In this document: positions 15,824 through 30,724 of the stretch, one piece after another
Layout: every line of letters starts with the position of its first letter
Position numbering within the stretch: position 1 is the first letter of the stretch
From: Marinactinospora thermotolerans DSM 45154
Lineage (GTDB): Bacteria; Actinomycetota; Actinomycetes; Streptosporangiales; Streptosporangiaceae
Assembly: GCF_900167435.1 (NCBI RefSeq)
Contig: NZ_FUWS01000004.1
Span: 62,001-126,000, forward strand
DNA length: 64,000 nt
Direction of reading: 5' to 3'
The notes under the pieces: generated by a model
Seen by the model: only the letters and a program-made list of their open reading frames with translations
The model's database searches: none
Told to the model about the DNA's origin: nothing
Program-made: the position numbers and the translations under genes

Positions 15824-17479
<1,656 letters not shown>

Positions 17480-17720
17480 GCCATGCCTCCCGGAGGGGAC
17501 ACACACCCCGTGGCGGACTTGGGCGATCCCCGCCCGGAAGCGCGCAGGTCAGGGCAGGGCGGTGGTCGCCCCGCTCGCCGCGGAGTCCGCCGGCCGTGGC
17601 CGAACCGTCGCGCGTCCCCTCCAGTCGCGGGCCGGAGAGGCGCACAGAGCCTCTCCGTGGCCGAGGCGGCCCGGCCGGGCCTGGGCGGGCCGGCCGGGCC
17701 ATCCGTCACCCTCGGGCAAC

Positions 17721-18554
17721 TCAGGTTCCGTGCAGATGGAGGAAGAGGTCCACCCACCGGTCAGGGGGGACGAAGGCGACCACCCGGCGGGGGTCCACCC
17801 CCGCCGCGCGGAACGCGGCGTCCAGCCGCCGCCGCGGATGGTCCCGGCGCAACGAGGCGTGCAGGCAGCCGCCGACCCCGCTGAATCCCGTGTCGACGAA
17901 GTGGCGGTAGGCGCCGGCCAGATGGTCGGGGACCAGCGGGACCGGGCGGCGACGCAACCGCAGTACCCCCGCGTCGACGCGGGGGACCGGGAAGAACCTG
18001 TCACGGGGAACGCGGCCCGCCAGGGTCCACTCGAACCAGGGCCAGGTTCGCACCGTCAACCTGCTCCACCTCCCGAACCCGCCGGTGCGCTTGCGGGCGT
18101 ACTCCACCTGGGTGATCAGGGTCGCGCTGGTCAGGGTGGGAGCCCGCAGACACCAGTCGACGATGTCCGAGGTGATCGAGTAGGGGATGTTCGCGACGAC
18201 GGAGAACGGGGCGCGGGGCGTTCTGGAATCCAGGAAGTCCCCGCTGATCACCCGGACGGAGGGGACGGCCCGGTAGCGCTTCGCGAGCCGGGCGGCGAAA
18301 CCGGGGTCGATCTCGTAGCACAGCAGTGTCCCGCAGACCGGCGCGAGGAAGCGGGTCAGCGCGCCATCGCCCGGACCGACCTCGATGACGAGATCGTCAC
18401 GGCCGGGGGCGGCAAGGCGCACCAGCCAACGGGCGACGGAGGGGTCGGTCAGGAAGTTCTGGGAGAGGGCTCGGCGCCGGTTCGCCCGTCTCCCCCGGGA
18501 GGGGACACGGGTGCCGGGGGCGGAGCCTGCGGGGGTGCCACGGTGGTGGGACAT
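17721..18554 (-). CDS. erm: 23S rRNA (adenine-N6) methyltransferase, Erm family
   Basis: A 277-residue Erm-type methyltransferase. Characteristic elements in order are RRRALSQNFLTDPSVARWLV, the SAM motif I EVGPGDGALTRFLA, the acidic CYEIDP, VISGDFLD, the catalytic NIPYSITSDIVDW and the C-terminal RFFPVPRVDAGVLRLRRRP. Dimethylation of A2058 of 23S rRNA gives macrolide-lincosamide-streptogramin B resistance. KsgA is the nearest alternative, but the basic N-terminus with SQNFL and the absence of KsgA-specific C-terminal features favour Erm. ATG 18554 is used; an in-frame ATG at 18665 lies in the untranslated leader. Upstream are a leader ORF and a WblC-type promoter. It faces rox tail-to-tail across a 240-bp gap. 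Confidence 0.88.
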   Translation of the reverse strand: MSHHRGTPAGSAPGTRVPSRGRRANRRRALSQNFLTDPSVARWLVRLAAPGRDDLVIEVGPGDGALTRFLAPVCGTLLCYEIDPGFAARLAKRYRAVPSVRVISGDFLDSRTPRAPFSVVANIPYSITSDIVDWCLRAPTLTSATLITQVEYARKRTGGFGRWSRLTVRTWPWFEWTLAGRVPRDRFFPVPRVDAGVLRLRRRPVPLVPDHLAGAYRHFVDTGFSGVGGCLHASLRRDHPRRRLDAAFRAAGVDPRRVVAFVPPDRWVDLFLHLHGT

Positions 18555-18807
18555 GAGAGGTCCGTTCCTGCCACACGGAGAGGTGGCGGAGGCGGACGGG
18601 GCCGTGGAGCGCGTGCGCCTGGGGCGACGCGGTGATGGGACACGGGCCCGTCCGAGGGCGGTCATGGACTGCGCATGCCGCCCGGTCCCAGGAGTGGGGA
18701 ACAGGACGCCTCAGGGCACGGCGAGGCCGCGCGGCAGGGGACGGGGACCTAGAGCACCCGGCCGGACGGGCTCCCCGAGACGGTGGTCGGGGAGCCGGAC
18801 GGGCGTG
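18555..18807 (-). other. erm leader region between leader ORF and erm start
   Basis: A 250-nt transcribed spacer with no separate gene. GC-rich stretches that can pair are plentiful here, so attenuation of erm by ribosome stalling on the leader ORF is possible, but I cannot fold it by hand with confidence. Confidence 0.45.
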
Positions 18808-18936
18808 TCAGTCGCCGGCGCGTCCTGGTGGAACCGGGACGGCGGACCGGTGACGGGGACGGATCACGAGGTCGGCCCCCCACCGGGAGCCGAAGCCGGT
18901 CACCGCGCAGCAGGCCGCGGCGGAAGAAGCACTCAT
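18808..18936 (-). CDS. Candidate 42-residue leader peptide upstream of erm
   Basis: An ORF starting ATG 18936 encodes MSASSAAACCAVTGFGSRWG and then LVIRPRHRS to a stop at 18808. The -10 box of the promoter ends nine bases before this ATG, so the transcript would be leaderless or nearly so, as for many Streptomyces resistance-gene leader ORFs. Leader peptides that stall under macrolides regulate many erm genes. Here the sequence gives only position and geometry, not proof of stalling. No conserved stalling motif is obvious, although RWG and RPRHR are basic/aromatic stretches. Confidence 0.5.
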   Translation of the reverse strand: MSASSAAACCAVTGFGSRWGADLVIRPRHRSAVPVPPGRAGD

Positions 18937-18945
18937 GGTGGGATC

Positions 18946-18984
18946 ACCCTAGGCCGCCCCCGTGGCGGGGACAACAGGTTTTTT
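18946..18984 (-). promoter_or_regulatory. WblC/WhiB7-type promoter of erm
   Basis: On the minus strand: A6 tract (18984-18979), CCTG, -35 TTGTCC (18974-18969), a 17-bp spacer, -10 TAGGGT (18951-18946), then ATG of the leader ORF nine bases later. An AT-rich block placed a few bases upstream of a TTGnnn -35 box is the known recognition feature of WhiB7/WblC with the principal sigma factor, which switches on intrinsic resistance genes when ribosomes are inhibited. Confidence 0.75.
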
Positions 18985-19077
18985 CCCTGTCCGGATTGGG
19001 GGATTACCTGGTTTGTTTTCCCGAATACCCAGCCGACCCTTGGGTAGCTGCCCCGCCGTTGTGACCGAGGGGGGAAG

Positions 19078-19302
19078 ATGATTCGCAAGCTCCACGAGAT
19101 GGGTGTCACGTCCGAGATGGCCTACACGGCTGGTTTCGGGTCGATCGGGTTGACCGTACTGATCTGGCTGGCCTCCAAGAAGGGCGAGGACGCCGGCATC
19201 GACCGGGCGGACCGCTGGGGGCTGTTCGTCGGAGAGTGGGCTCCGACGTTCTTCGCGCTGGGGGTCGCGCTGAAGTTGGAGGAACAGCGCTTTCTCAGGT
19301 GA
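19078..19302 (+). CDS. Small membrane protein, 74 residues
   Basis: A protein starting MIRKLHEMGVTSEMAYTAGF with a hydrophobic segment around 20-33 (FGSIGLTVLIWLAS) and a second around 50-63 (GLFVGEWAPTFFALGVAL), ending EEQRFLR. ATG 19078 is preceded by GAGGGGGGAAG, a strong ribosome binding site. I recall close relatives as conserved small hypothetical proteins in actinomycetes, with no known function. It is divergent from the erm leader promoter, and the AT-rich block between them could serve both directions. A perfect hairpin follows it. Confidence 0.8.
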   Translation: MIRKLHEMGVTSEMAYTAGFGSIGLTVLIWLASKKGEDAGIDRADRWGLFVGEWAPTFFALGVALKLEEQRFLR

Positions 19303-19681: not shown

Positions 19682-20263
19682 TCACACGGGCCGGGAGAGG
19701 GGCCGAAGAGGAAGGCGGCGGGCGCGGGCCGAGGCCGCCACGAGGGCGGACAGGCGACGGGCGCTCGTCTCCTCGTCCTCGGCGTCCATCACCCACGACG
19801 TCGCGGCGCGTCGGTAGGGGAGATCCTGAGCGCGGAAGAAGGCCCAAGCCGGGGGGTTGGCCTGGAAGAGCGCCAGATAGCTGTCGCACAGCTCGTCCCC
19901 CGGGCCATGTGGGCAGGGGCCGGCCTGGGCGGACGCGGACGGGCCGAAGGCGGCGTGCCCGGCGGGATGGACGAGCCCTCGCTCGGCAAGCTCGGCCACC
20001 CGGGCCGCGCGTAGTTCCTGGAAACGGTCGCCGGGCGGGCAGGGGGCGAGCCGGACCGCGTGGTGGTGGGCGTCGACGCGCACGCGCGCGGTGTCGACCC
20101 AGCCGAAGCACAGTGCCTGGTCGAGCGTTTCGGCCCAGCTCGGAGCCTGTTCCCCGACGTGGTCGTGGTCGGGGAGACCGACCCACACCTCGGTGGCGCT
20201 CGCGTGGTTGGCCGTCAGCCAGGCGCGGAGTTCGGCGACGGTGGAGAAGAAGGTGGGGCGCAT
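19682..20263 (-). CDS. YdeI/OmpD-associated family protein
   Basis: A 193-residue protein of the YdeI/OmpD-associated (YdhG/YjbR-like) family: STVAELRAWLTANHASATEV near the start, WVGLPDH, then SWAETLDQALCFGWVDTAR, which is the conserved EAVDEALCFGWIDG element. The C-terminal half contains the usual FQANPPAWAFFRAQDLPYRR. Members are cytoplasmic and have been linked to envelope or peptide stress, but no biochemical activity is known. ATG 20263 gives the family N-terminus. It is divergent from the alcohol dehydrogenase gene. The middle (about 110-130) carries a less typical Pro/Gly-rich insertion. Confidence 0.8.
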   Translation of the reverse strand: MRPTFFSTVAELRAWLTANHASATEVWVGLPDHDHVGEQAPSWAETLDQALCFGWVDTARVRVDAHHHAVRLAPCPPGDRFQELRAARVAELAERGLVHPAGHAAFGPSASAQAGPCPHGPGDELCDSYLALFQANPPAWAFFRAQDLPYRRAATSWVMDAEDEETSARRLSALVAASARARRLPLRPLSRPV

Positions 20264-20463: not shown

Positions 20464-21504
20464 ATGCGAGCCGTCCAGTACACCGAGGTAGGTCGTCCCC
20501 CGGTCGTGAACGAGGTCGCGGTCCCCGAGCCGGGGCCGGGACAGATCCTGCTTGAGGTGACCGCCGCGGGGGTCTGCCACTCGGACCTCGCGGTCATGGG
20601 GTGGTCCGCTGACGAGTTCCCCTATCCGTTGCCGTTGACGCTGGGCCACGAGGGAGCCGGCCGTGTCGCCGCGGTGGGGGCGGAGGTGCGTTCCGTTTCC
20701 GTCGGCGATTCCGTGGTGGTGTACGGCCCGTGGGGGTGCGGTGTCTGTCACGCGTGCGCGAAGGGGGCGGAGAACTACTGCCCGCGCGCGGCGGGCATGG
20801 GGATCATGCCGCCGGGGCTGGGCCGGCCCGGTGCCCTGGCCGACTACATGCTGGTGGATTCCGAGCGGCACGTGGTTCCGATCGGTGACCTCGACCCGGT
20901 GCAGACGGTGCCGTTGACCGACGCCGGGTTGACCCCCTACCACGCGATCCGGCGTTCACTGGACAAGATGTACGCGGGCAGCACGGTCGTGGTGATCGGT
21001 GTGGGCGGTCTGGGGCACATCGGCGTGCAGTTGCTGCGGGCGATGAGCGCGGCGACGGTGGTGGCGCTCGACGTCCGGCCGGAGAGCCTGGAGTTGGCGG
21101 AGCGCAGTGGGGCCCACCACGTTTTCAAGTCGGACGCGTCCGCGGTGGACAAGGTCCGTGAGCTCAGCAACGGGGAGGGCGCCTCGGTGGTGCTGGACTT
21201 CGTCGGCGCTCAGGCGACGGTCGACCTGGCGGCGAAGCTGGTGGGCATGGACGGTGACGTGACCGTCGTGGGGATCGGTGGCGGTGTGCTTCCGGTGTCC
21301 TTCGCTTCGGTTCCCTATGGGGTCCGTGCGGGTGTGACCTACTGGGGGACGCGTAGCGAGCTGATCGAGCTGATCGATCTGGCGCGCGCGGGCTCGGTGA
21401 GCGCGCACGTGGAGCGTTACGAGCTGGCGGAGGCCCCGCAGGTGTACGAGCGGCTGCACGAGGGGCGGATCCAGGGGCGCGCGGTGATCGTGCCGCAGCG
21501 GTAG
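20464..21504 (+). CDS. Zinc-dependent alcohol dehydrogenase (MDR superfamily)
   Basis: A 346-residue medium-chain dehydrogenase. Catalytic zinc ligands are in GVCHSDLA (Cys) and LGHEGAG (His-Glu); the structural zinc loop is CGVCHACAKGAENYC; the nucleotide fold is VVVIGVGGLGHIGVQLL followed by LDVRPESLELA, whose Asp favours NAD(H). These features match NAD-dependent alcohol dehydrogenases of the AdhA/ADH_N + ADH_zinc_N type. ATG 20464 follows AAAGGAG with good spacing. It is monocistronic and convergent with the SpoIIE phosphatase gene. Substrate (primary or secondary alcohol, or aldehyde reduction) cannot be fixed. Confidence 0.9.
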   Translation: MRAVQYTEVGRPPVVNEVAVPEPGPGQILLEVTAAGVCHSDLAVMGWSADEFPYPLPLTLGHEGAGRVAAVGAEVRSVSVGDSVVVYGPWGCGVCHACAKGAENYCPRAAGMGIMPPGLGRPGALADYMLVDSERHVVPIGDLDPVQTVPLTDAGLTPYHAIRRSLDKMYAGSTVVVIGVGGLGHIGVQLLRAMSAATVVALDVRPESLELAERSGAHHVFKSDASAVDKVRELSNGEGASVVLDFVGAQATVDLAAKLVGMDGDVTVVGIGGGVLPVSFASVPYGVRAGVTYWGTRSELIELIDLARAGSVSAHVERYELAEAPQVYERLHEGRIQGRAVIVPQR

Positions 21505-21559
21505 GCGATCGACGGTTGTGGACGCCGTCCGGTGGGGGTTCCCGTCGGGCGGCGTTTTC

Positions 21560-22755
21560 TTATGGGTGGGGCATCCATTCGATGAGCAGGATGGTGGCGT
21601 CGTCGCTGAGTTTGCAGTGCTGGTGGTCGAGGATGGCGTGGATGAGGCGGCGGAGTGCTTCGGGGGCGGGGTCGCCGACGGCGGTGGCGCGGATGATGAA
21701 GTCGGTGAAGCGTTCGAGTCCGAAGAGGGCGCCGTTGGCGTCGCGGGCTTCGGTGACGCCGTCGGTGTAGAGCAGGATGCGGTCGCCGGGTTGGAGCCGG
21801 AGTCGCTGGACGCTGCGTTCGAGGGGTGTGTCGAAGAGGCTGGGCAGGCCGAGGGGGGGTTCGGGGGTTCCTTCGAGGGCGTTGTCGATGACGCGCTGGT
21901 CGCGGATGAGCAGGGGTGGGGGTGGCCGCAGTTGGTCCAGTCCAGGGTGCCGGTGGTGAGGTGGAGTTGGAGGAAGATGCCGGTGCAGAACTGGTCGGGG
22001 AGCCAGGTGGAGAGGGCCTGGTCGATGCGGGCGGTGAGTTTGTCGAGGCCGTTTCCGGTGCGGCGGGCGTTGCGGCAGGCGGCCATGGCGACGGAGGTGG
22101 CCAGGCCGGAGGCGAGGTCGTGGCCCATGGAGTCGAGGATGGCCGCGTGCAGGGTGTCGGAGGTGAGGGCGTGGTCGAAGGCGTCGCCTCCGAGGTTGTA
22201 GGCGGGTTCGAGTACGGCGGTGGTGATGACGCGTTCGGTGCCGATGGTGCGGGGTGGGAGGAAGGCGCGCAGCATTTCTGAGGGGAGCCGCATGGGGGCG
22301 GTGCGGGTGTGCTGGGTGTAGGTGTCGCTGTAGGTGCGTTTGGAGGTGATGGTCATGGCGAGGAGGGCGGCGAGGGAGCGGCAGCGGCGCAGGGTGGTGC
22401 TGTCGAGGGTGGTGGTGTGGATGCCGAGGACGCCGAGGCGTTCGGCGCCGTCGATGAGGGGGAGCCAGGCGGTGAGGGTGCCGCTGTCGTTCTCGGTGAT
22501 GCGCAGGGATTGGGCGCGGTAGGCGGCTCCTGCGGGGGAGGTTTCGACGGGGAGGGTGGGGAGTTTCTCGTCGAGGGGGATGAGGTGGTTCTGCTGGAGG
22601 TCGACGAGGTAGGCGGAGGCGTGTTCGAGGCCGATGCTGGCGGCGTAGTCGTCGATGACGCGGGGGACGTCGTTGGGGCCGCAGGTGTGGGTGTGCTCGA
22701 TGAGGCGTTGGAGCAGGTGTTCGCCTGGGCTGATCCGGAGTTCGTCGTCAGTCAT
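21560..22755 (-). pseudogene. SpoIIE-type PP2C serine phosphatase with GAF-like sensor, one frameshift
   Basis: Corrected for one base, this is a 398-residue protein. The N-terminal GAF-like sensor runs to about 150. The PP2C/SpoIIE domain follows: AFLPPRTIGTERVITTAVLE, NLGGDAFDHALT, LDSMGHDLASGLATSVAMAA, LDWTNCGHPHP, then in the second frame LLIRDQRVID, GDRILLYTDGVTEARDANG and SDDATILLIEWMPHP. The frame breaks in the C4 run at 21913-21916 (G on the plus strand); one more C restores NCGHPHPLLIRD exactly, as in all relatives. Both halves are otherwise fully conserved, including the metal-binding Asp residues, so a missing base in the assembly is the likeliest explanation. The role is dephosphorylation of anti-anti-sigma factors in stress signalling. 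Confidence 0.85.
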
Positions 22756-22874
22756 GTGTCCCCCCGTTCACCAGTCTCACATTGGGCGCGGTGTGGCGGG
22801 GGGTGTTGGGTGCCGTGTCGCGGTTCGGGTGTGGGGGGTTGGCCGGGGCCTGTGGTGGGGCCCCGGCGTGGTGG

Positions 22875-23255
22875 TCAGCGTACGAGGAGGTCGAGGAGGC
22901 GGGTGGCTTCGGCCGCGGGATCGGTGGTGAGTCCGGTGTGGATGGGGCCGGGTTGGACGATGGTGCTGCGGGGGGCGGTGAGCCAGCGGAAGCGTCGGCC
23001 GGGGTCGTCGTGGCCGGCGGGGCCGGCGTCGGGGCCTCCGGTGCAGATGAGTTGGGTGGCGCGGAGGGCTCGGTGGACGCCGTCGATGTCGACGTCGGGG
23101 TCGAGGGCGCGGAGTCGGTCGGGGTCGAGGTGGCAGTGTGCTGCGAGGTAGGAGCGTGCTTGGCAGTAGACGATGACGCCGGCGTTGACGAGTTCGCCGC
23201 GTTCGAGGCGGGGGACGACCCGGATGAGGGCGTATTCGAAGACGTCGCGGTTCAT
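22875..23255 (-). CDS. DUF3037 protein
   Basis: A 126-residue protein beginning MNRDVFEYALIRVVPRLERG, then ELVNAGVIVYCQARSYLAAH. This is the DUF3037 signature (YALIRVVPRVERGEFVNVGVIL). Function is unknown; the domain is nearly always adjacent to a HipA-like kinase gene, as here. ATG 23253-23255 overlaps the stop of that kinase gene (ATGA), so the two are translated together and probably act together. Confidence 0.88.
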   Translation of the reverse strand: MNRDVFEYALIRVVPRLERGELVNAGVIVYCQARSYLAAHCHLDPDRLRALDPDVDIDGVHRALRATQLICTGGPDAGPAGHDDPGRRFRWLTAPRSTIVQPGPIHTGLTTDPAAEATRLLDLLVR

Positions 23256-24007
23256 CGGGGCAGCTCCGGCAGCCAGGTGCGGTCGGTGGCTCGGGTGAGC
23301 AGGTGGGTGGTGTAGGCGTCGCGGACGTCGTCGGGTGTGGGGAATCCGGGTTCGTCGTGGAGCCATGGGTCGGGGATGAGGGCGGTGATCTCGCGGAGGA
23401 GGGGTTCGGTGATGCGGGGGGCGAGGTCGTTGTCGGCTGCGGTGAGGTCGGGGTGGGTGTGGATGAGGACGTGGTCGGTGGCGTTGTAGGGGCGGGTGGC
23501 GGCTTTGGCTGCGCCGGGCCAGTTGTGGTGGAAGATCAGGGTCGCGCCGTGGTCGATGAGGTAGGGGCGGCCGTGCCAGACGAGCATGTTGGGGTTGCGC
23601 CAGCTGCGGTCGACGTTGCCGACGAGGGCGTCGAACCACAGGATGCGGCCGGCGAGGCCGGGGTCGATGGGGTAGACGAGGGGGTCGAAGCCGAGGGCGC
23701 CGGGGAGATAGTCCATGCCGAGGTTGAGGCCGCCGCTGGCTTTGAGGAGGTCTTGGACTTCTTCGTCGGGTTCGCCGCGTCCGATGAGGGGGTCGATGTG
23801 GAGGAGGGCGAGGTCGGGGACGGGGAGTCCGAGGCGGCGGGCGAGTTCTCCGGCGACGATCTCGGCGATGAGGGTTTTGCGGCCTTGGCCGGCGCCGATG
23901 AATTTGGCGACGTACATGCCGAGGTTGTCGGCTTCGACCAGGCCGGGGAGTGATCCGCCTTCGCGTAGGGGCGTGACGTATCTGGTGGCGGTTATCTCTT
24001 CGAGCAC
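23252..24007 (-). CDS. HipA-like kinase family protein (HipA_2 type)
   Basis: A 251-residue protein starting at GTG 24007 (VLEEITATRYVTPLREGGSL). Kinase-like features are NLGMYVAKFIGAGQGRKTLI (ATP-binding lysine region), the catalytic loop-like WFDALVGNVDRSWRNPNML (DxxxxN) and the metal-binding YLIDHGATL in place of DFG. These match the stand-alone HipA_2 kinase-like family rather than full toxin HipA, and no HipB antitoxin gene is present. Partner DUF3037 is coupled by a 4-bp overlap. A role in translation or stress control is guessed from the family, not shown. The upstream DNA is a degenerate GNAT gene. Confidence 0.82.
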   Translation of the reverse strand: MLEEITATRYVTPLREGGSLPGLVEADNLGMYVAKFIGAGQGRKTLIAEIVAGELARRLGLPVPDLALLHIDPLIGRGEPDEEVQDLLKASGGLNLGMDYLPGALGFDPLVYPIDPGLAGRILWFDALVGNVDRSWRNPNMLVWHGRPYLIDHGATLIFHHNWPGAAKAATRPYNATDHVLIHTHPDLTAADNDLAPRITEPLLREITALIPDPWLHDEPGFPTPDDVRDAYTTHLLTRATDRTWLPELPR

Positions 24008-24159
24008 GCGCGCCAGCTTAGGGCGTGTTCGGTGGGGTGGGTGACCGTCGCGTCGGGGGTGTTTCGGCTGGCGGGGGCTGGGCGCCTGCGGGGGTGTGGG
24101 TGGTGGGCTCTGTCTCCTTGGGGTGTCCGTGGTCGTCGGTGTGGGTGGCGGGGCGGTGG

Positions 24160-24760
24160 GGTCAGGGGCGGGGGGCGATTCGGTGGTGGCGTAGAGGTGG
24201 CGGGCGGCGTGGTTGTCGCGCTCGACTTGGAGGTGGAGCCGGTGGGTGCCGGTGCGGGTGGTCCAGGCGACGCCGGTGCGGCGGTGGTGAATAGGGCGGT
24301 GCCCGCGGTGGGGCCGTCGATGTCGAGGTGGGCGAAGGCGGTGGGGTGTGGATGCGGGTGAGGACGGGGGTGTCGTCGTGGCCGGTGAGTTGGTGGTGGC
24401 TGTGTGTGGGGGTGGTGGTGTAGCCGCGTTGGGTGAGGTGGGTGTCGAGTTCGGTGTGTTGGTGTGCGGGGGTGAGGTCGCGTTGGGTGTGGAAGGTTTC
24501 GGTGGCGTCGATGTGGTGGGGGCGGTGCTGGGGATGTGGTGGGAGGGCGGAGCCGGGGCGGTTGCGGGTGACGCCGGGGGGTGGCCGTAGGAGCCAGCCG
24601 TGGTGGTGGCGGGTGGTGGGGGTGGGCCAGGCGCGGTTGGCGTGGAGGTCGATGAGGTGGGGGGTGGTGGCTTTCTGGGGGTGAGTGGTGCCCGGGATGG
24701 TGGGGGGTGGTTCGGGGAGGGGTGTGGCTGTTGTGGGTGGTGGGAGTGCCCCTCACCCAT
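24160..24760 (-). pseudogene. Degenerate GNAT acetyltransferase
   Basis: Three frame pieces on the minus strand reassemble into a GNAT protein. Piece 1 reads HLIDLHANRAWPTPTTRHHH then GWLLRPPPGVTRNRPGSALP and FHTQRDLTPAHQHTELDTHL. Piece 2 reads TAFAHLDIDGPTAGTALFTT. Piece 3 reads RLHLQVERDNHAARHLYATT. The first break is one C missing in a C4 run near 24350; the second is near 24290. The acetyl-CoA pyrophosphate loop (R/QxxGxA) expected between pieces 2 and 3 and the C-terminus are missing, so this is a real pseudogene, not only a sequencing slip. The sequence is extremely His/Pro/Thr-rich because codons are almost all C-ended. No start codon with a ribosome binding site was found. Confidence 0.65.
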
Positions 24761-24764
24761 TTGT

Positions 24765-24781
24765 TTAGTTAGCCTATCTAA
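24765..24781. promoter_or_regulatory. MarR operator candidate
   Basis: TTAGTTAG-C-CTATCTAA, inverted arms matching at 7 of 8 positions, 14 bp before the MarR start in an AT-rich patch (TTTAGTTAGCCTATCTAAG). MarR proteins typically bind such 16-20-bp TTAG-type palindromes in their own promoters. Confidence 0.65.
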
Positions 24782-24795
24782 GTTATAGTCGGGGC

Positions 24796-25221
24796 GTGCG
24801 ATCCGATCCCCGTGAACTGGCCGAGGGGTTCTCCCTCGTCCTTCGCGATCTCGTCCTCCTTCTTCGTCAGGTGACGGCGGAACAGCCGGTCTCCGCCCAG
24901 CAGCTGGGAATCCTGGGGTCGTTGGAGGCCGGCCCGCGCAGGGTGACCGAACTGGCCCGCGAGCACGGTGTGCGCGCGCCCACGATGACCGCGCACGTGT
25001 CGCGGTTGGAGGAGGCCGAGGCGGTCTCTCGTGGGGTCGACACCGATGACGCCCGGGTGGTGACGGTGGGGTTGACCTCGCGCGGCCGTGACCTGCTGGC
25101 CGCGGGCAGGGCCGCGCGGACCGCCTTCCTGGCGGAGCGACTGGAGGCGTTGGGGGAGTCGGAGCGTGCCGCGCTGGCGGCGGCGCTGCCGGTGCTGTCC
25201 AGGATCTGCGCCGGCGGTTGA
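24796..25221 (+). CDS. MarR family transcriptional regulator
   Basis: A 141-residue MarR protein: helical N-terminus (ELAEGFSLVLRDLVLLLRQV), winged helix with SAQQLGILGSLEAGPRRVTE and ARE HGVRAPTMTAHVSRLEEA, and the wing VSRGVDTDDARVVTVGLTSR. The GTG start at 24796 lies right after an AT-rich palindrome that is probably its operator. An MFS gene follows 46 bp downstream on the same strand, the classic regulator-pump layout, so it most likely represses itself and the pump until a ligand binds. Confidence 0.9.
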   Translation: MRSDPRELAEGFSLVLRDLVLLLRQVTAEQPVSAQQLGILGSLEAGPRRVTELAREHGVRAPTMTAHVSRLEEAEAVSRGVDTDDARVVTVGLTSRGRDLLAAGRAARTAFLAERLEALGESERAALAAALPVLSRICAGG

Positions 25222-25267
25222 GGCCGGCGGCCGGTCTCGTCTCGTTCGAAGAGGTAGTGCGAAGGTC

Positions 25268-26479
25268 ATGTCCACCCGTGCCGACACCGAGTTATCCGGT
25301 TCCCCGTCCCCAGGGTCGTTTCGGGCGAGTCCGTGGCGTCAGCCCCGCGCGGTGTGGGCGACAGCGTTCGCGGCGGTAGTCGCCTTTGTGGGGATCGGCC
25401 TGGTTGATCCGATCCTGCCCTCGATCGCCCAGGGGCTGGCGGCCTCGCCCAGTCAGGTCTCGTTGCTGTTCACCAGTTACTTCCTGGTCACGGCGGTGGC
25501 GATGCTGGTCACCGGGTTCGTCTCCAGCCGTATCGGCGGTAAGGCGACCCTGCTGGTGGGGCTGGCCATCGTGGTGGTGTTCGCGGCGCTGTCGGGCTCC
25601 TCGCAGTCGGTGGGGGAGCTGATCGGGTTTCGCGCGGGCTGGGGGCTGGGCAACGCCCTGTTCGTGGCGACGGCGCTGGCGGTCATCGTGGGCGCCTCCA
25701 GCGGTGGGGCCTCCGCGGCGATCGTGCTGTATGAGGCCGCGTTGGGGGTCGGGATCGCCTCGGGGCCGCTGTTGGGGGCGCTGTTGGGCGGATGGCATTG
25801 GCGGATGCCGTTCTTTGGGACGGCGGCGCTCATGGCGGCGGGTTTCGTGTCGATCCTGGTCCTGCTGACGGCGCCGCCGCGGCCGGCGACGCGGACGCGG
25901 TTGTCGGATCCGTTGCGGGCGTTGGCGCACGGAGGGTTGGCGACGACCTCGGTGACGGCCTTGTTCTACAACTTCGCGTTCTTCACCGTGTTGGCGTTCA
26001 CGCCGTTCGTGTTGGGCATGTCGCCCTATGGGATCGGCGCGGTGTTCTTCGCCTGGGGCGTGCTGGTGGCGGTGTCGTCGGTGGTGGTGGCTCCGCGCGT
26101 GCAGCGGCGTATCGGCACGGTGGCGACGTTGCACCTGGCGTTGGGGTTGTTGCTGGTGTTGCAGGTGGCGATCGCGTTGGGCGGCCGGGTGGAGGTCGTG
26201 GTGTTCGTGGTCTTGACCGGTGTGCCGATCGGGTTGAACAACACGGTGTTCACCGAGGCGGCGATGGAGGTGTCGCAGGCGCCGCGGCCGGTGGCCTCGG
26301 CCGGGTACAACTTCGTGCGTTGGATGGGGGGCGCGTTGGCGCCGTTCGTGGCCACGGAGCTGGGGGAGAAGGTGCATCCGTCGCTGCCCTACCTGGTGGG
26401 GGCGTTGTGCTGTCTGGCGGGGATGCTGGTTCTGGTGGCGCGCCGTGGGCATCTGCGGCGGCTGGACGCGGTGCGGTGA
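25268..26479 (+). CDS. MFS transporter under MarR control
   Basis: A 403-residue MFS protein with 12 predicted hydrophobic segments. The first helix contains GIGLVDPILPSIAQGLAASP, the typical D/ILP start of DHA1-like arabinose-efflux/EmrD-type drug transporters, followed by FVSSRIGGKATLLVGL (motif A variant) and LYEAALGVGIASGPLLGALL (motif C, the antiporter signature GxxxGPxxGG). ATG 25268 is preceded by GAAGG. It forms a two-gene unit with the MarR gene. Probable drug/H+ antiporter; substrate unknown. A good hairpin terminator with a T run follows. Confidence 0.9.
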   Translation: MSTRADTELSGSPSPGSFRASPWRQPRAVWATAFAAVVAFVGIGLVDPILPSIAQGLAASPSQVSLLFTSYFLVTAVAMLVTGFVSSRIGGKATLLVGLAIVVVFAALSGSSQSVGELIGFRAGWGLGNALFVATALAVIVGASSGGASAAIVLYEAALGVGIASGPLLGALLGGWHWRMPFFGTAALMAAGFVSILVLLTAPPRPATRTRLSDPLRALAHGGLATTSVTALFYNFAFFTVLAFTPFVLGMSPYGIGAVFFAWGVLVAVSSVVVAPRVQRRIGTVATLHLALGLLLVLQVAIALGGRVEVVVFVVLTGVPIGLNNTVFTEAAMEVSQAPRPVASAGYNFVRWMGGALAPFVATELGEKVHPSLPYLVGALCCLAGMLVLVARRGHLRRLDAVR

Positions 26480-26481
26480 GC

Positions 26482-26512
26482 GGCCTGCGCCCCCGGGGCG
26501 CAGGCCGGTTTT
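26482..26512 (+). terminator. Terminator between MFS and AfsR-like genes
   Basis: GGCCTGCGCCCC (26482-26493) and GGGGCGCAGGCC (26495-26506), then GGTTTTCGG. It serves the plus-strand MFS gene and possibly the convergent regulator. Confidence 0.75.
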
Positions 26513-26516
26513 CGGA

Positions 26517-29500
26517 TCAGCGCAGGGCGCGCGTTGCCGTGCGCGCGGCGTCGGCCCAGAGGGCGGATCCCGCCGTGAGGGCGACGCGCCTGGCCTGACG
26601 GTAGTGGGCCGCGGCGTCGGCCGGGCGTCCCTGGGCGGCGGCCAGGTCGCCGAGGTGGTGGGCGACGGGTCCCATGGTCAGCAGGCCGCTGCCCGCGCCG
26701 GCCAGCTCCGGCGCCGCGGGCAGGAGGCGCCGGTAGGCGCGGTCCATGGCGGCGTGGTCGTTCGCGGTGATCGCGGCTTGGGCGGCCAGGCAGGTGAGTG
26801 CTTCGTCGAGGTGGCCGCGGGGCGGCGGGGGCGGGGTGGGAGCCTGCGGGGTGGTCAGCGCGAGGAGCCATGGCGCGTAGGGAGAGTCGTGTGGCGTGGT
26901 GGTGGGGGCGGGGCCGGGCAGGTGCAGGCTGGCCAGGGCCAGGGAAAGCAGGCCGTGGCGCATGCCGGGCATGCCGGATGTGGCGAGCAGGGCGTCGGTG
27001 GCGTGGTAGGCGGATGCGGCCTCGTCCCGCTTGCCCGCGATGGCCAGCCGTAGCGCCGTGTAGCCCTGGGTGAACACGCCGATGAGCGGGATCTCGTGGC
27101 GGTCGCCCAGCCTGTCCAGGGCCGTGGCGTGGGTGTCGGCGGAGGCGAGGTCGGCACGGGCGCTGTGGGCCTGCAGGAGGATGAGGTGGCCCAGGATCTC
27201 GAAGGTCACCAGGTCGTGTCGGGTGGCCAGGTCGAGTAGTTCGGTGCCGATCTCGGCGCGTTGCGGGGCGAGCCCGGTGCGGTCGAAGGACTGGAGGAAG
27301 CGGGCGTTGAGGGCCAGGGCGAGCAGGCCGGGGTCGTCGAGGCCGCGGGCGATGGTCTCGGCCTGGAGGGCGGCGCGGCGGCCGTGGGGGGTGGCGCGCA
27401 GCTCCAGGGCGATGGTGCTCAACAGGCGGGCGCGCTGGTGTGCGTCGTTGCGGGGGAGGGCGTCCAGGGTGGTGCGGGCGGTGTCGGCGATGCGTTGGGC
27501 CAGTTCGGGGTCGTCGCCGCGGGTCCAGACGGCGGGGACGTCGAAGGTGGTGAGGACCTGCGCGGTGAGGTGGGGGTCGCCGAGCTGCGCGGCTGTGGTG
27601 AGGGCGTGTGAGCGTTGCCGGCGGGCCTCGTCCAGGCGGCCGGTCACCGCCAGTGCCCGCGCCATGCCCATGGTCGCCTCCAGTCGGCCGCGCAGGTCGG
27701 TGGTTGCCGAGCGGTCGTGGGCGGTGGCGGCGGCCCGCCACAGTCGGGCGGCCTCGTAGGGGGCGAAGTGGCGTTGGGCGTGGAGCGCCGCGAGGCGGGC
27801 GTGGTGTGCGGCGCGTCGGGCGGCGGCGGGGGTGCCGGCGCGGCCGTAGTGGTGGGCGAGGGCGGCGTTGTCGTCGGGGCGCAGGGTCTCCAGGGCCGCG
27901 GCGACGGCGGCGTGCCGGCGTGTCCGGCGGGCGTGTGACATCGCGTCGTAGATGGCGTCGCGTACCAGGAGGTGGGTGAAGCGCAGTCCGGTGGCGCCCT
28001 CTTCGGTGAGGAAGCCGGCGAGCAGGACGGTGTCCAGGGTGTCGAGGAGTTCCTCCTCGTCGTCGGCGAGGGCGGCCAGGATGGCGGGGTCGACGTCGCG
28101 GCCGATCACGGCGGCCTGGTCCAGGAGTCGCCGGGCGGGGCGGGGCAGTGTGGCGAGGCGGTGGTGGATGATATCGCCCACTCCGGCGGGGATCGCGTCT
28201 AGGGCGTCGGCTCCTCGGCTGCGTAGGAGGCGGGCGAGTTCGCGGGCGAAGAAGGGGTTGCCGTCGCTGCGCCGGTGGATCAGCGCGAGGTGGTGCGGGG
28301 TGACGTCGTGGCCGGTGATGGCGCGTACGAGGTCGTCGGTGGCCGGTCGGGTCAGGCCCCGCAGGTGGATGCGGTCTGGTTCGTGGGGGGCGAGGCGGGC
28401 GAGGGCGGCGGTCAGCGGGGGCCGGTTCGTGCCGGGGTGGTGGGTGCCGACCAGGAGGAGGGGGCCGGGTGGGGTGTGGGCGGCCAGGGTGGTGAACAGT
28501 TCGAGGGTCTCCTCGCCCGCCTGGTGCAGGTCGTCGAAGACGAGGAGGAGGGGGCCGCGCCGGGTGGTGTGGGCGATGAGGTCGGTGGCGGCGCGCAGGG
28601 CGTGGAAGCGGGTTGTCACGGGGTCGGGGTCGGGGGGTGGGGTGGTGGGGGCGGTTGCGGTCAGTGTGGTGGCGATCTGTGTCCAGGGCCAGGTGCCGGG
28701 CGCTCCGTCGTGTTCGGGTGCGCGGCCCCAGGCGGTGGTCCATCCCCGTGTCGCCATTCGGTGGGTGAACGCTTCGGCCAGGGCGGTCTTGCCGGTCCCG
28801 GGGTCGCCGCTGATCAGGACCGTTGTGGGCGTTGTGGTGCGCGTGGCGGTGGCGGCGGCCTGTTCCAGGCAGCGCAGTTCGCGGTCTCGGCCGAGGAGGA
28901 GGTGGGAGGGGGGTGCGGGCGGGCGGGGTGGGGCGAGGTGGGGGGCGTGGGCGAGGATGTCGTCGTGGACGCGGCGCAGCCGGGGACCGGGGTCCACGCC
29001 GAGTTCGTCGGCGAGGATGTCGCGGGCGCGGCGTAGCGCGGTGAGGGCTTGGGCCTGTTGGCCGCTGCGGTACAGGGCCAGGGCGAGCTGTCGCCAGGCG
29101 TCCTCGCGTAGCGGGTGGGCGAGGGTGTGGGCGTGGAGGAGGGGGACGGCTTCGTTGTGGCGGCCGAGGTTCAGCAGCGCCTCGGCGCGTCGTTCCACGG
29201 CCACCAGGCGTGTCTCCTCCAGCCGTTCGGCGATGCCGCGGGCCCATGGCCGGTCGGCGAACTCGGCGTAGGCGGGGCCCCTCCACAGGGCGAGGGCCTC
29301 CTCCAGGATGGACAGCGCGCGGGCGGGGTCTGCTTCTTCGAGGAGGGTGCCGCTGTCCGCGGTGGCGGTTTCGAAGCGTTGGGCGTCGACGGTGTGGGGG
29401 GTGGTCCGCAGGGCGTAGCCGGGTGGGGCGGTCACCAGGAGGCGGGCGGGCCGGCGTGGGGGGCGGTGGGGTTCCAGGGTGCGGCGCAGGGCGGAGACGA

Positions 29501-29717
29501 AGGTGCGTATCGCGGCCGTCGCGCCGGGTGGGGGGACGTCCCACAGGTCGTCGATGAGCTGGTCGAGGGGGACGACGCGGCCTTCGGCGGCGATGAGTCG
29601 GGCCAGGACCTCGCGGTGGCGTGGTCCTTTGAGGGCGAGTGGCCCGTTGCCGTCGTGGACTTCCAGTGGGCCTAGCACGGCGAAGGAGAGGTGTGTGCCC
29701 GTTCCTTCCCCTCCCAT
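26517..29717 (-). CDS. AfsR/SARP-type large transcriptional regulator (BTAD + NTPase)
   Basis: A 1066-residue regulator. Residues 10-100 are an OmpR-like winged helix (SFAVLGPLEVHDGNGPLALK, then REVLARLIAAEGRVVPLDQL); 105-250 are the BTAD (ALWRGPAYAEF, ILADELGVDPGPRLRRVH). An AAA/STAND NTPase follows with Walker A SGDPGTGKTALAEAF (about 305) and Walker B-like LLLVFDDLHQA. The C-terminal half is helical TPR-like repeats. This is the AfsR/SARP architecture that activates antibiotic clusters or stress genes in response to a bound ligand. No biosynthetic cluster is visible in the window, so the target may be distant. The plus-strand neighbour is the divergent hydrolase gene. Confidence 0.9.
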   Translation of the reverse strand: MGGEGTGTHLSFAVLGPLEVHDGNGPLALKGPRHREVLARLIAAEGRVVPLDQLIDDLWDVPPPGATAAIRTFVSALRRTLEPHRPPRRPARLLVTAPPGYALRTTPHTVDAQRFETATADSGTLLEEADPARALSILEEALALWRGPAYAEFADRPWARGIAERLEETRLVAVERRAEALLNLGRHNEAVPLLHAHTLAHPLREDAWRQLALALYRSGQQAQALTALRRARDILADELGVDPGPRLRRVHDDILAHAPHLAPPRPPAPPSHLLLGRDRELRCLEQAAATATRTTTPTTVLISGDPGTGKTALAEAFTHRMATRGWTTAWGRAPEHDGAPGTWPWTQIATTLTATAPTTPPPDPDPVTTRFHALRAATDLIAHTTRRGPLLLVFDDLHQAGEETLELFTTLAAHTPPGPLLLVGTHHPGTNRPPLTAALARLAPHEPDRIHLRGLTRPATDDLVRAITGHDVTPHHLALIHRRSDGNPFFARELARLLRSRGADALDAIPAGVGDIIHHRLATLPRPARRLLDQAAVIGRDVDPAILAALADDEEELLDTLDTVLLAGFLTEEGATGLRFTHLLVRDAIYDAMSHARRTRRHAAVAAALETLRPDDNAALAHHYGRAGTPAAARRAAHHARLAALHAQRHFAPYEAARLWRAAATAHDRSATTDLRGRLEATMGMARALAVTGRLDEARRQRSHALTTAAQLGDPHLTAQVLTTFDVPAVWTRGDDPELAQRIADTARTTLDALPRNDAHQRARLLSTIALELRATPHGRRAALQAETIARGLDDPGLLALALNARFLQSFDRTGLAPQRAEIGTELLDLATRHDLVTFEILGHLILLQAHSARADLASADTHATALDRLGDRHEIPLIGVFTQGYTALRLAIAGKRDEAASAYHATDALLATSGMPGMRHGLLSLALASLHLPGPAPTTTPHDSPYAPWLLALTTPQAPTPPPPPRGHLDEALTCLAAQAAITANDHAAMDRAYRRLLPAAPELAGAGSGLLTMGPVAHHLGDLAAAQGRPADAAAHYRQARRVALTAGSALWADAARTATRALR

Positions 29718-29845
29718 GTCGCCAATCTATCGGCTCGCGGGTGTGGTGCGACCCTCGTGGCCTGGGCACTCATCGGTTGCTCATTGGTGGCTGAGGTGGG
29801 TGCGGCAGGGTTTCGGGTGGACCTTCGATTCGGAAAGGCATCACC

Positions 29846-30724
29846 GTGGAACCGATCATTGATGGATTTGACTATCGGCGTGTTCAGGTCGCGCCGGGGG
29901 TGGAGCTCAACGTCGCTGTTGGCGGCGCGGGGGAGCCGGTCGTGCTCTTGCACGGGTTTCCCCAGACCCATCTGATGTGGCGGCATGTGGCGGCCGACCT
30001 GGCCGGCGAGTACCGGGTCATCTGCCCGGACCTGCGCGGGTATGGCGACAGTGACAAGCCGGCCGACGTCGATGGGCGGGTCTATTCCAAGCGGAACATG
30101 GCGGCTGACGTTGTGGCGTTGGCGCGCGCCTTGGGCCATGAGCGTTTCGCGTTGGCCGGCCATGACCGGGGTGCCCTGGTCGCCTTCCGGGCGGGCCTGG
30201 ACCATCCCGACGCCATTACCCGTCTCGCCCTGCTCGACGTGGTGCCGACCGTGGACACGTGGGAGGTGATGAGCGGGGTGTCGGCGGCGGTGGGCTTCCA
30301 CCTGTATTTGATGGCCCAGCCGCCGGGGCTGCCCGAGCGGTTGATCGGGGCCGAGCCCGACGTGTTCTTCGGGCATTTCCTCGACCTGTGGGCGCGTGAC
30401 CCGCGGGCGATCCCCGCCGAGGTGCGCGCCGCCTATCTGAGGGCGTCGCGTGGCGCCGTCGACTCCATCGTCGCCGACTACCGGGCCTCGGCCGGTGTCG
30501 ATGTGGAGGACGACCAGGCCGACCGGGCTGCGGGGAACCGGCTGGGCATGCCGGTGCTGGTGCTCCAGCAGGATTGGGGGGCGGCGTTGGGCTATGACGC
30601 TGCCGGGGTGTGGCGGGCCTGGGCGCCGGATCTGCGCCATGTCACGGTGGAGTGTGGCCATTTCATGGCCGAGGAGGACCCGGCCGCGGTGGCCAAGGCG
30701 CTGCGGGAGTTGCTGGCCGGGTAG
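29846..30724 (+). CDS. Alpha/beta hydrolase, haloacetate dehalogenase / epoxide hydrolase-like
   Basis: A 292-residue alpha/beta hydrolase. Family features are the oxyanion motif LLHGFPQTHLMWRHVA, DLRGYGDSDKP, the nucleophile elbow LAGHDRGALVAFR (catalytic Asp in GHDRG), and the base His in ECGHFMAEEDP. The GHDRGxxVAxR elbow and HGFPQT match fluoroacetate dehalogenases and soluble epoxide hydrolases. RVYSKRNMAADVVALARALG is also typical of the former. Both attack a C-halogen or epoxide carbon via an aspartyl ester. The GTG start at 29846 is preceded by GGAAAGG. It is divergent from the AfsR-like gene and ended by a strong terminator. Confidence 0.88.
   Translation: MEPIIDGFDYRRVQVAPGVELNVAVGGAGEPVVLLHGFPQTHLMWRHVAADLAGEYRVICPDLRGYGDSDKPADVDGRVYSKRNMAADVVALARALGHERFALAGHDRGALVAFRAGLDHPDAITRLALLDVVPTVDTWEVMSGVSAAVGFHLYLMAQPPGLPERLIGAEPDVFFGHFLDLWARDPRAIPAEVRAAYLRASRGAVDSIVADYRASAGVDVEDDQADRAAGNRLGMPVLVLQQDWGAALGYDAAGVWRAWAPDLRHVTVECGHFMAEEDPAAVAKALRELLAG

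Follow-up and report, generated by a model that had tools for sequence, protein, structure and literature searches.

Arrest leaders, attenuation of the ermC kind, the Arg-X-Arg motif, WblC promoters, erm genes driven by WblC and mycobacterial leaderless upstream ORFs (uORFs) are already known, and the attenuator of ermA is of the same kind as that of ermC. A translational-attenuation model has been described for ermC (PMC13410324). ErmDL of Bacillus has its arrest site at Arg-X-Arg, a motif said to be conserved among the uORFs that accompany macrolide-resistance genes (PMC8298421). In Streptomyces coelicolor, the WblC motif comprises a GAAAWY box located 3 nt before TKGMNN, followed after 16–19 nt by TANNNT; the start site of WblC-activated transcripts is mostly 7 or 8 bp past the −10, and the Erm(O)-type gene lrm is activated by WblC (PMC7157823). 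In Mycobacterium abscessus, WhiB7 acts directly on erm41 (PMC10727445). A survey of the roughly 250 bp upstream of erm genes found scattered uORFs, and concluded that they arose independently and that ancestral erm had no uORFs (PMC11264731).

We analyzed a window of 64,000 nucleotides from Marinactinospora thermotolerans DSM 45154, whose genome comprises 5.66 Mb in 37 contigs and whose genus has no second member among the genomes compared. Promoter, leader ORF and erm all lie on the minus strand of the window (Table 1); the preliminary description had given no strand. The promoter letters it had listed, A6-CCTG-TTGTCC-17-TAGGGT, are read at 18984–18946, and the 42-codon ORF with its ATG nine bases past the −10 is present, starting at 18936. 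What had been called a 250-nt leader is the stretch of 253 nt from the leader stop to the erm ATG, and the two start codons are 382 nt apart. The leader ORF would have no Shine-Dalgarno sequence, as its ATG is too near the predicted transcript start, while the start codon of erm was chosen on the basis of the conserved Shine-Dalgarno. In profile searches, the Erm protein scored 362 bits against NF000337 (the ErmE/ErmH/ErmO/ErmR family), above the curated threshold of 320, and 161 bits against PF00398; by these scores, the gene product is a predicted 23S rRNA (A2058) N6-methyltransferase of the ErmE/H/O/R group. A second, weak Erm relative in the same genome, with 33% identity, is probably the housekeeping 16S rRNA dimethylase.

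Table 1. Elements of the erm locus, in positions of the window
Feature	Position	Strand	Remarks
A6 tract	18984-18979	-	followed by CCTG
WblC-type box AAAAAC	18978..18983	-	3 nt 5' of the −35, overlaps the A6 tract (18979-18984); 5/6 to GAAAWY
−35-like TTGTCC	18969..18974	-	fits TKG of the published TKGMNN; the mismatch is M at position 4
−10-like TAGGGT	18946..18951	-	fits TANNNT; 17-nt spacer
Near-leaderless leader ORF, 42 codons + TGA	18808..18936	-	ATG 9 nt behind the −10
Codons 26–30, Arg-Pro-Arg-His-Arg, predicted macrolide arrest site	18847..18861	-	R[ILMVPFH]R conservation in leaders
Leader tail, segment 2 of the proposed switch	18820..18842	-	predicted to pair with 18678-18709
Segment 3, proposed partner of the leader tail	18678..18709	-	putative counterpart of CCGGUCCAGG in relatives
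Segment 5, GGACGGGC	18646..18653	-	covarying helix with segment 6 formed by the counterpart in relatives
Segment 6, GCCCCGTCC, predicted to pair either with segment 5 or with the Shine-Dalgarno	18594..18602	-	in relatives, covariation for 5/6, none for 6/Shine-Dalgarno
Small hairpin GCCAC...GTGGC between segment 6 and the Shine-Dalgarno	18570..18587	-	78.6% pairing of the equivalent helix in relatives
Shine-Dalgarno region AGGAACGGACC, segment 7	18559..18569	-	similar sequence at the equivalent place in relatives
erm, 277 aa, ErmE/H/O/R group	17721..18554	-	NF000337 and PF00398 scores

Several features were recorded around the locus. A rifampin monooxygenase gene (15838–17479, plus strand; NF033145, 899 bits, cut-off 800), with its ATG probably at 16052, is convergent with erm; about 195 nt 5' of its start, at 15838–15857, lies GGGGGCTTGCGGCAAGACCC, which we take to resemble a rifamycin-associated element. 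Divergent from the leader, a 74-aa ORF (19078–19302, plus strand) has membrane-like stretches by eye and no match in Pfam, and 19682–20263 on the minus strand encodes an OmdA/YdeI-type protein (PF13376, 36.9 bits, cut-off 25.6). A frame at 20956–22755 on the minus strand, SpoIIE-type phosphatase-like by eye, seems to slip and overlaps an alcohol-dehydrogenase-type gene on the opposite strand. Across the nine kilobases from 21001 to 30000, the GC skew is strongly positive (0.16–0.42 per kb) and the AT skew negative.

The combination of promoter and near-leaderless ORF is rare by chance. The pattern AAAANNNNTTGN{20,22}TANNNTN{5,11}ATG has one match in the whole genome (5,663,707 bases), and the reversed control pattern has none. 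Searches with the Erm protein matched 191 of 341 genomes in the window's family at 1e-40 and 68 of 394 in the class at 1e-30, the window's own genome counted in both. From part of all Erm matches found, we collected 179 upstream regions of up to 900 nt before the match start, 142 from the window's family and 37 from outside it, two of them shortened by contig ends (L001, which is the window; L003, from one named contig; L004–L132; eight of L144–L157; and L158–L197). A strict rule requiring GAAAWY with at least 5/6 letters, T[TG]G, 16–19 nt, TANNNT and an ATG 5–11 nt further on, devised from the published box with the first leaders already inspected, matched 107 of the 179 regions, and in 77 of these 107 the ATG is exactly 7 nt from the −10; reverse complements, reversed sequences and 20 block-shuffled sets all gave 0. 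A looser, extended rule, devised with the misses of the strict rule already inspected, matched 138 regions (119/142 in the family and 19/37 outside), compared with 0 in the reverse complements, 0 in the reversed sequences and 0–2 in ten shuffles. At most 137 upstream regions besides the window's own contain a counterpart of its leader ORF, and one of these matches, in L003, looks false. The extended rule found no match in 41 regions; when the −10 alone is required, several of these show leaders too (e.g. L158, L166, L168, L185, L189, L192, L065, L066 and L087), which stay outside the counts. Given the single match in the genome and the near-zero controls among the 179 regions, a chance origin of promoter and leader was rejected.

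With AAAAAC (5/6), TTGTCC, a spacer of 17 and TAGGGT, the window promoter agrees with the motif of the WblC/WhiB7 regulon. The genome has six genes of the WhiB family, and one of them (L203, G000:C18:49723-49866) combines a WhiB domain with a C-terminal RGRPRK, a tail that we take to be a mark of WblC/WhiB7 and that points to a gene of this type. L203 has a WblC-type promoter of its own, 562 nt 5' of the matched domain; neither ATG nor GTG occurs within 59 nt of its −10, and it is thus without a near-leaderless leader. Transcription of erm in the window is predicted to depend on WblC.

The position of the start codon is highly constrained among relatives. Its distance past the −10 is 7 nt in 99 of the 138 leaders and 6–10 nt in 135; the codon is ATG in 127 and GTG in 11. 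Taken together with the published start distance of WblC-activated transcripts, this spacing predicts that most transcripts begin at the start codon or 1 base before it, the commonest spacing giving a predicted 5' UTR of 0–1 nt. For the window transcript, the motif spacing would give a 5' UTR of 2–3 nt. Whole ribosomes are able to initiate on leaderless messages, and initiation of this kind leads us to predict unusual drug responses.

The leader peptides share a basic motif. R[ILMVPFH]R, a residue class picked with the leaders already inspected, is present in 128 of the 138 leaders, compared with a mean of 32.6 and a maximum of 45 in 500 peptide shuffles and with 69 of 276 in the other two frames of the same DNA; 137 leaders carry [RK]x[RK], against a mean of 73.2 and at most 89 in the shuffled peptides. 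The X residue is mostly Pro, Leu or Ile, with a full range of Pro, Leu, Ile, Met, Val, Phe and His. The first Arg is encoded by five synonymous codons (CGG 47, CGC 37, CGT 31, AGG 10, CGA 3), suggesting that the residue and not the DNA is conserved. Despite variable N-terminal parts, the distance from motif to stop is 6 (28 leaders), 7 (40) or 14 residues (24) in 92 of the 128, the RPR of the window belonging to the 14-residue class. Selection on the peptide is mild, with a dN/dS of about 0.67 in frame and 1.05 and 0.98 in the other frames (38 pairs). Leaders of this type are also found before distant erm relatives with 36–40% identity to the window's Erm, for example MTASMRLRTA (L174), MSAATFFIRIRIA (L187) and MCCFACFTRIRRS (L177 and L193). 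In L174, from genome G590, the leader begins 7 nt past a −10 with a WblC-type box, and Ser4-Met5-Arg6-Leu7-Arg8 occupy the positions described for ErmDL (PMC8298421); this likeness to the Bacillus leader may reflect either common origin or convergence across phyla. Comparison of the erm upstream regions thus finds a conserved leader ORF with an arrest motif.

We consider it probable that the locus is an inducible macrolide-lincosamide-streptogramin resistance gene with two layers of control, in which a WblC-activated leaderless arrest leader governs erm by translational attenuation. In the first layer, as the motifs suggest, WblC/WhiB7 and the main sigma factor would start transcription a few bases 5' of the leader ATG, and the leader would be read as a leaderless message. 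In the second, a macrolide-bound ribosome would stall at Arg-Pro-Arg(-His-Arg), codons 26–30, masking the initial portion of the leader hairpin and freeing the leader tail, which could then pair with the downstream segment; a chain of alternative helices would in turn release the erm Shine-Dalgarno from its partner, allowing Erm to be made. Without drug, the tail would be folded back and the Shine-Dalgarno kept paired. Such a switch would be a translational attenuator that operates in the manner of ermC and carries an ErmDL-like arrest motif. Both the drug-dependent stall and the release of the Shine-Dalgarno are thus predictions of the model.

The RNA elements that such a switch would use were compared in two alignments of relatives. 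The first, comprising 38 short-spacer loci, shows strong conservation in the leader tail, in the segment GCCCAGGGCC, in a hairpin and in the Shine-Dalgarno GAAAGGGC. The cost of opening the Shine-Dalgarno was computed for 38 of 39 loci in three groups, leaving out L118, where the Shine-Dalgarno pattern is absent. In all three groups, the cost is minimal when the front edge of the ribosome is 12 nt short of the stop codon's last base, with means of 3.05, 3.94 and 2.15 kcal/mol compared with 3.6–8.3 at other edges; an ErmDL-like stall would put the edge 14 nt short of that base in 36 of the 38 loci. The mean unpaired probability is out of step with the opening cost, and its minimum in group A (0.29) falls at the predicted stall place.

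The second alignment contains 28 Nocardiopsis-like relatives, the label being a guess. Here the helices formed by tail and segment 3 and by segments 5 and 6 are 96.8% paired, compared with 27–50% when slid, a comparison biased by the derivation of the structure from the same sequences. In these helices, 6 pairs are changed on both sides (shuffle mean 3.0, reached in 6 of 500) and 19 cells are (shuffle mean 5.2, reached in 0 of 500), shuffle figures that kinship inflates. The opposite (OFF) state is 87.6% paired, with 2 double-changed pairs (reached by 425 of 500 shuffles) and 14 cells (0 of 500). The Shine-Dalgarno helix is 97.3% paired with zero double changes in the 28 relatives and is thus unproven by covariation. 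A second scan of opening costs, in coarser steps, covered 26 of the 38 loci chosen for it, 18 Nocardiopsis-like and 8 window-like. Among the former, the cost near the predicted stall is under the median in 15, the minimum lies 4–10 nt upstream of the predicted edge in 10, and in 5 the Shine-Dalgarno is easiest to open when the whole leader is unoccupied; among the latter, the cost at the predicted stall is in the lowest 18% in all 8 loci, taking the best of up to four motifs. Against shuffles, the tail duplex has a mean z of −0.42 over 131 leaders, with 17.6% at p≤0.05 compared with 2.3% for an N-terminal control. Permutation tests of the pairing between tail and segment 3 gave P values of 0.049 for 13 window-like and 0.0014 for 27 Nocardiopsis-like loci; a pooled comparison was discarded, as it mixed tails of unequal length. 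What these comparisons show is the architecture, its conservation and, among relatives, covariation in the helices of leader tail and relay.

In the window, the elements follow in the expected order: tail (18842–18820), segment 3 (18709–18678), GGACGGGC, GCCCCGTCC, hairpin and AGGAACGGACC. The duplex of tail and segment 3 has −37.4 kcal/mol, ranking second of 40 partners, and the surroundings of segment 3 form the best partner region along the spacer. This duplex is equalled by 38 of 1000 segment shuffles and by 1641 of the 18274 windows taken across the 64 kb, a different stretch of the leader pairs more strongly with segment 3 (−47.9), and the tail does not stand out (z −0.2) against shuffles of its entire downstream region. 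In view of these results, we regard helix exchange in the window as a prediction. The 3-nt Shine-Dalgarno core used for the opening cost in the window was one of three post hoc choices, and the minimum was given no weight. Rfam gave 0 matches at the gathering score in the window. The 407-nt leader fold has a z of −3.3, and shorter pieces have only −1.0 and −1.8; in view of these shorter folds, a demonstration of the RNA switch from the window alone was not accepted. As for the two layers of the preliminary description, WblC activation finds support by comparison in the fit of the motif, the predicted WblC/WhiB7-type gene and the Erm(O)-type precedent of S. coelicolor (PMC7157823). The attenuation it had thought possible gains from the relatives, with their leader ORF, start position, Arg-X-Arg and covarying helices, and is weakly favored by the window's own RNA.

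Three other explanations bear on these data. Activation by WblC alone could control erm, the leader ORF being an incidental leaderless frame that senses nothing; the motif and the regulator gene are both present, and the RNA tests on the window itself are weak. We consider this improbable, because the leader start position, the Arg-X-Arg motif and the spacing from motif to stop recur across many genera, and the leader-tail helices covary in relatives. Transcription attenuation, in which the leader would choose between terminator and antiterminator as in whiB7/wblC, has a precedent in the action of whiB7 leaders (PMC10727445), would suit the strong GC hairpin directly 3' of the leader stop and gains from the lack of covariation in the Shine-Dalgarno helix. 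However, a scan that detects the U-tract type only found 0 intrinsic-terminator-like sites in 17600–19200, and conserved elements extend as far as the erm Shine-Dalgarno. On these two grounds, we favor translational attenuation and regard control by a terminator as quite unlikely.

The third explanation concerns the signal: the leader may sense general translation stress or other drugs, such as ketolides or lincosamides, and not the common macrolides. This would be in line with ErmDL, where arrest by ketolides requires Arg-X-Arg and arrest by erythromycin hardly does, although the same source describes the motif as conserved in the uORFs of macrolide-resistance genes (PMC8298421). Considering also that erm protects against macrolides, we think this unlikely, and retain the two-layer switch responding to macrolides as the preferred explanation.

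The same design recurs in many actinobacterial relatives, so that it looks like a widespread two-step switch and not a one-off. A broader reading, which we offer tentatively and hold to be slightly more doubtful than probable, is that of an old module of Actinomycetes, inherited with erm contrary to PMC11264731: a WblC-type promoter would produce a transcript beginning at the start codon of an Arg-X-Arg leader, the sensor would be read by leaderless initiation as soon as transcription begins, and stress (through WblC) and drug identity (through arrest) would be combined as in an AND gate. In 88 of the 138 leaders, the start codon is 250 nt or more upstream of the point where the Erm match begins, and a survey reaching about 250 bp could therefore miss many of them (PMC11264731). 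If true, the module would enlarge the known arrest peptides by a sizeable, testable class whose translation starts without a leader, illustrate how one gene can be placed under both a stress regulator and a sensor for a particular drug, and challenge the view that erm leaders arose independently. The natural variants at X (Pro, Leu, Ile, Met, Val, Phe and His) would then constitute a ready set to study macrolide stalling on the ribosomes of actinomycetes, which produce many of these drugs. Our literature search, with older papers on ermSF and ermSV and those listing arrest leaders outside its scope, found no account of leaderless, WblC-linked erm leaders. The older Streptomyces work on ermSF and ermSV may contain parts of the combination.

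Each of the described systems resembles the locus in some of its parts. M. abscessus erm41 (PMC10727445) and S. coelicolor lrm/SCO6089 (PMC7157823) are erm genes under the same regulator; the available text of the two papers makes no mention of a leader peptide for either gene, and the word 'leader' is absent from that of PMC7157823. Six loci of the genus g85, Streptomyces-like by guess (L144, L148, L150, L151, L153 and L155), have GTG leaders exactly 7 nt past the −10 with the common sequence M[AG]AxNAI...GLGRG...R[MK]RRGPGALTG, and their RMRR or RKRR leaders may be compared with lrm/SCO6089. The mycobacterial leaderless uORFs likewise place a small ORF first on a leaderless transcript, and attenuation has been proposed for the Cys-rich ones (PMC4633059); they differ in sensing amino acids and not drugs, and neither 'erm' nor 'WhiB7' occurs in the available text of that paper. 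The uORF-attenuated whiB7/wblC genes also have a WblC-type promoter followed by a leader that senses stalled ribosomes (PMC10727445), but a terminator is controlled there, whereas translation of erm is the likelier target here and the uORF begins at the predicted transcript end. ErmDL shares the Arg-X-Arg motif (PMC8298421), which in the window is located at codons 26–30 of a near-leaderless leader and in the set has mostly Pro, Leu or Ile at X. In the attenuators of the ermC and ermA type, a leader ORF also precedes erm and a stall is predicted to remodel hairpins and free the erm Shine-Dalgarno; the locus would differ from them in a leader that starts without a Shine-Dalgarno at the predicted transcript end, in its predicted activation by WblC and in its long GC-rich relay.
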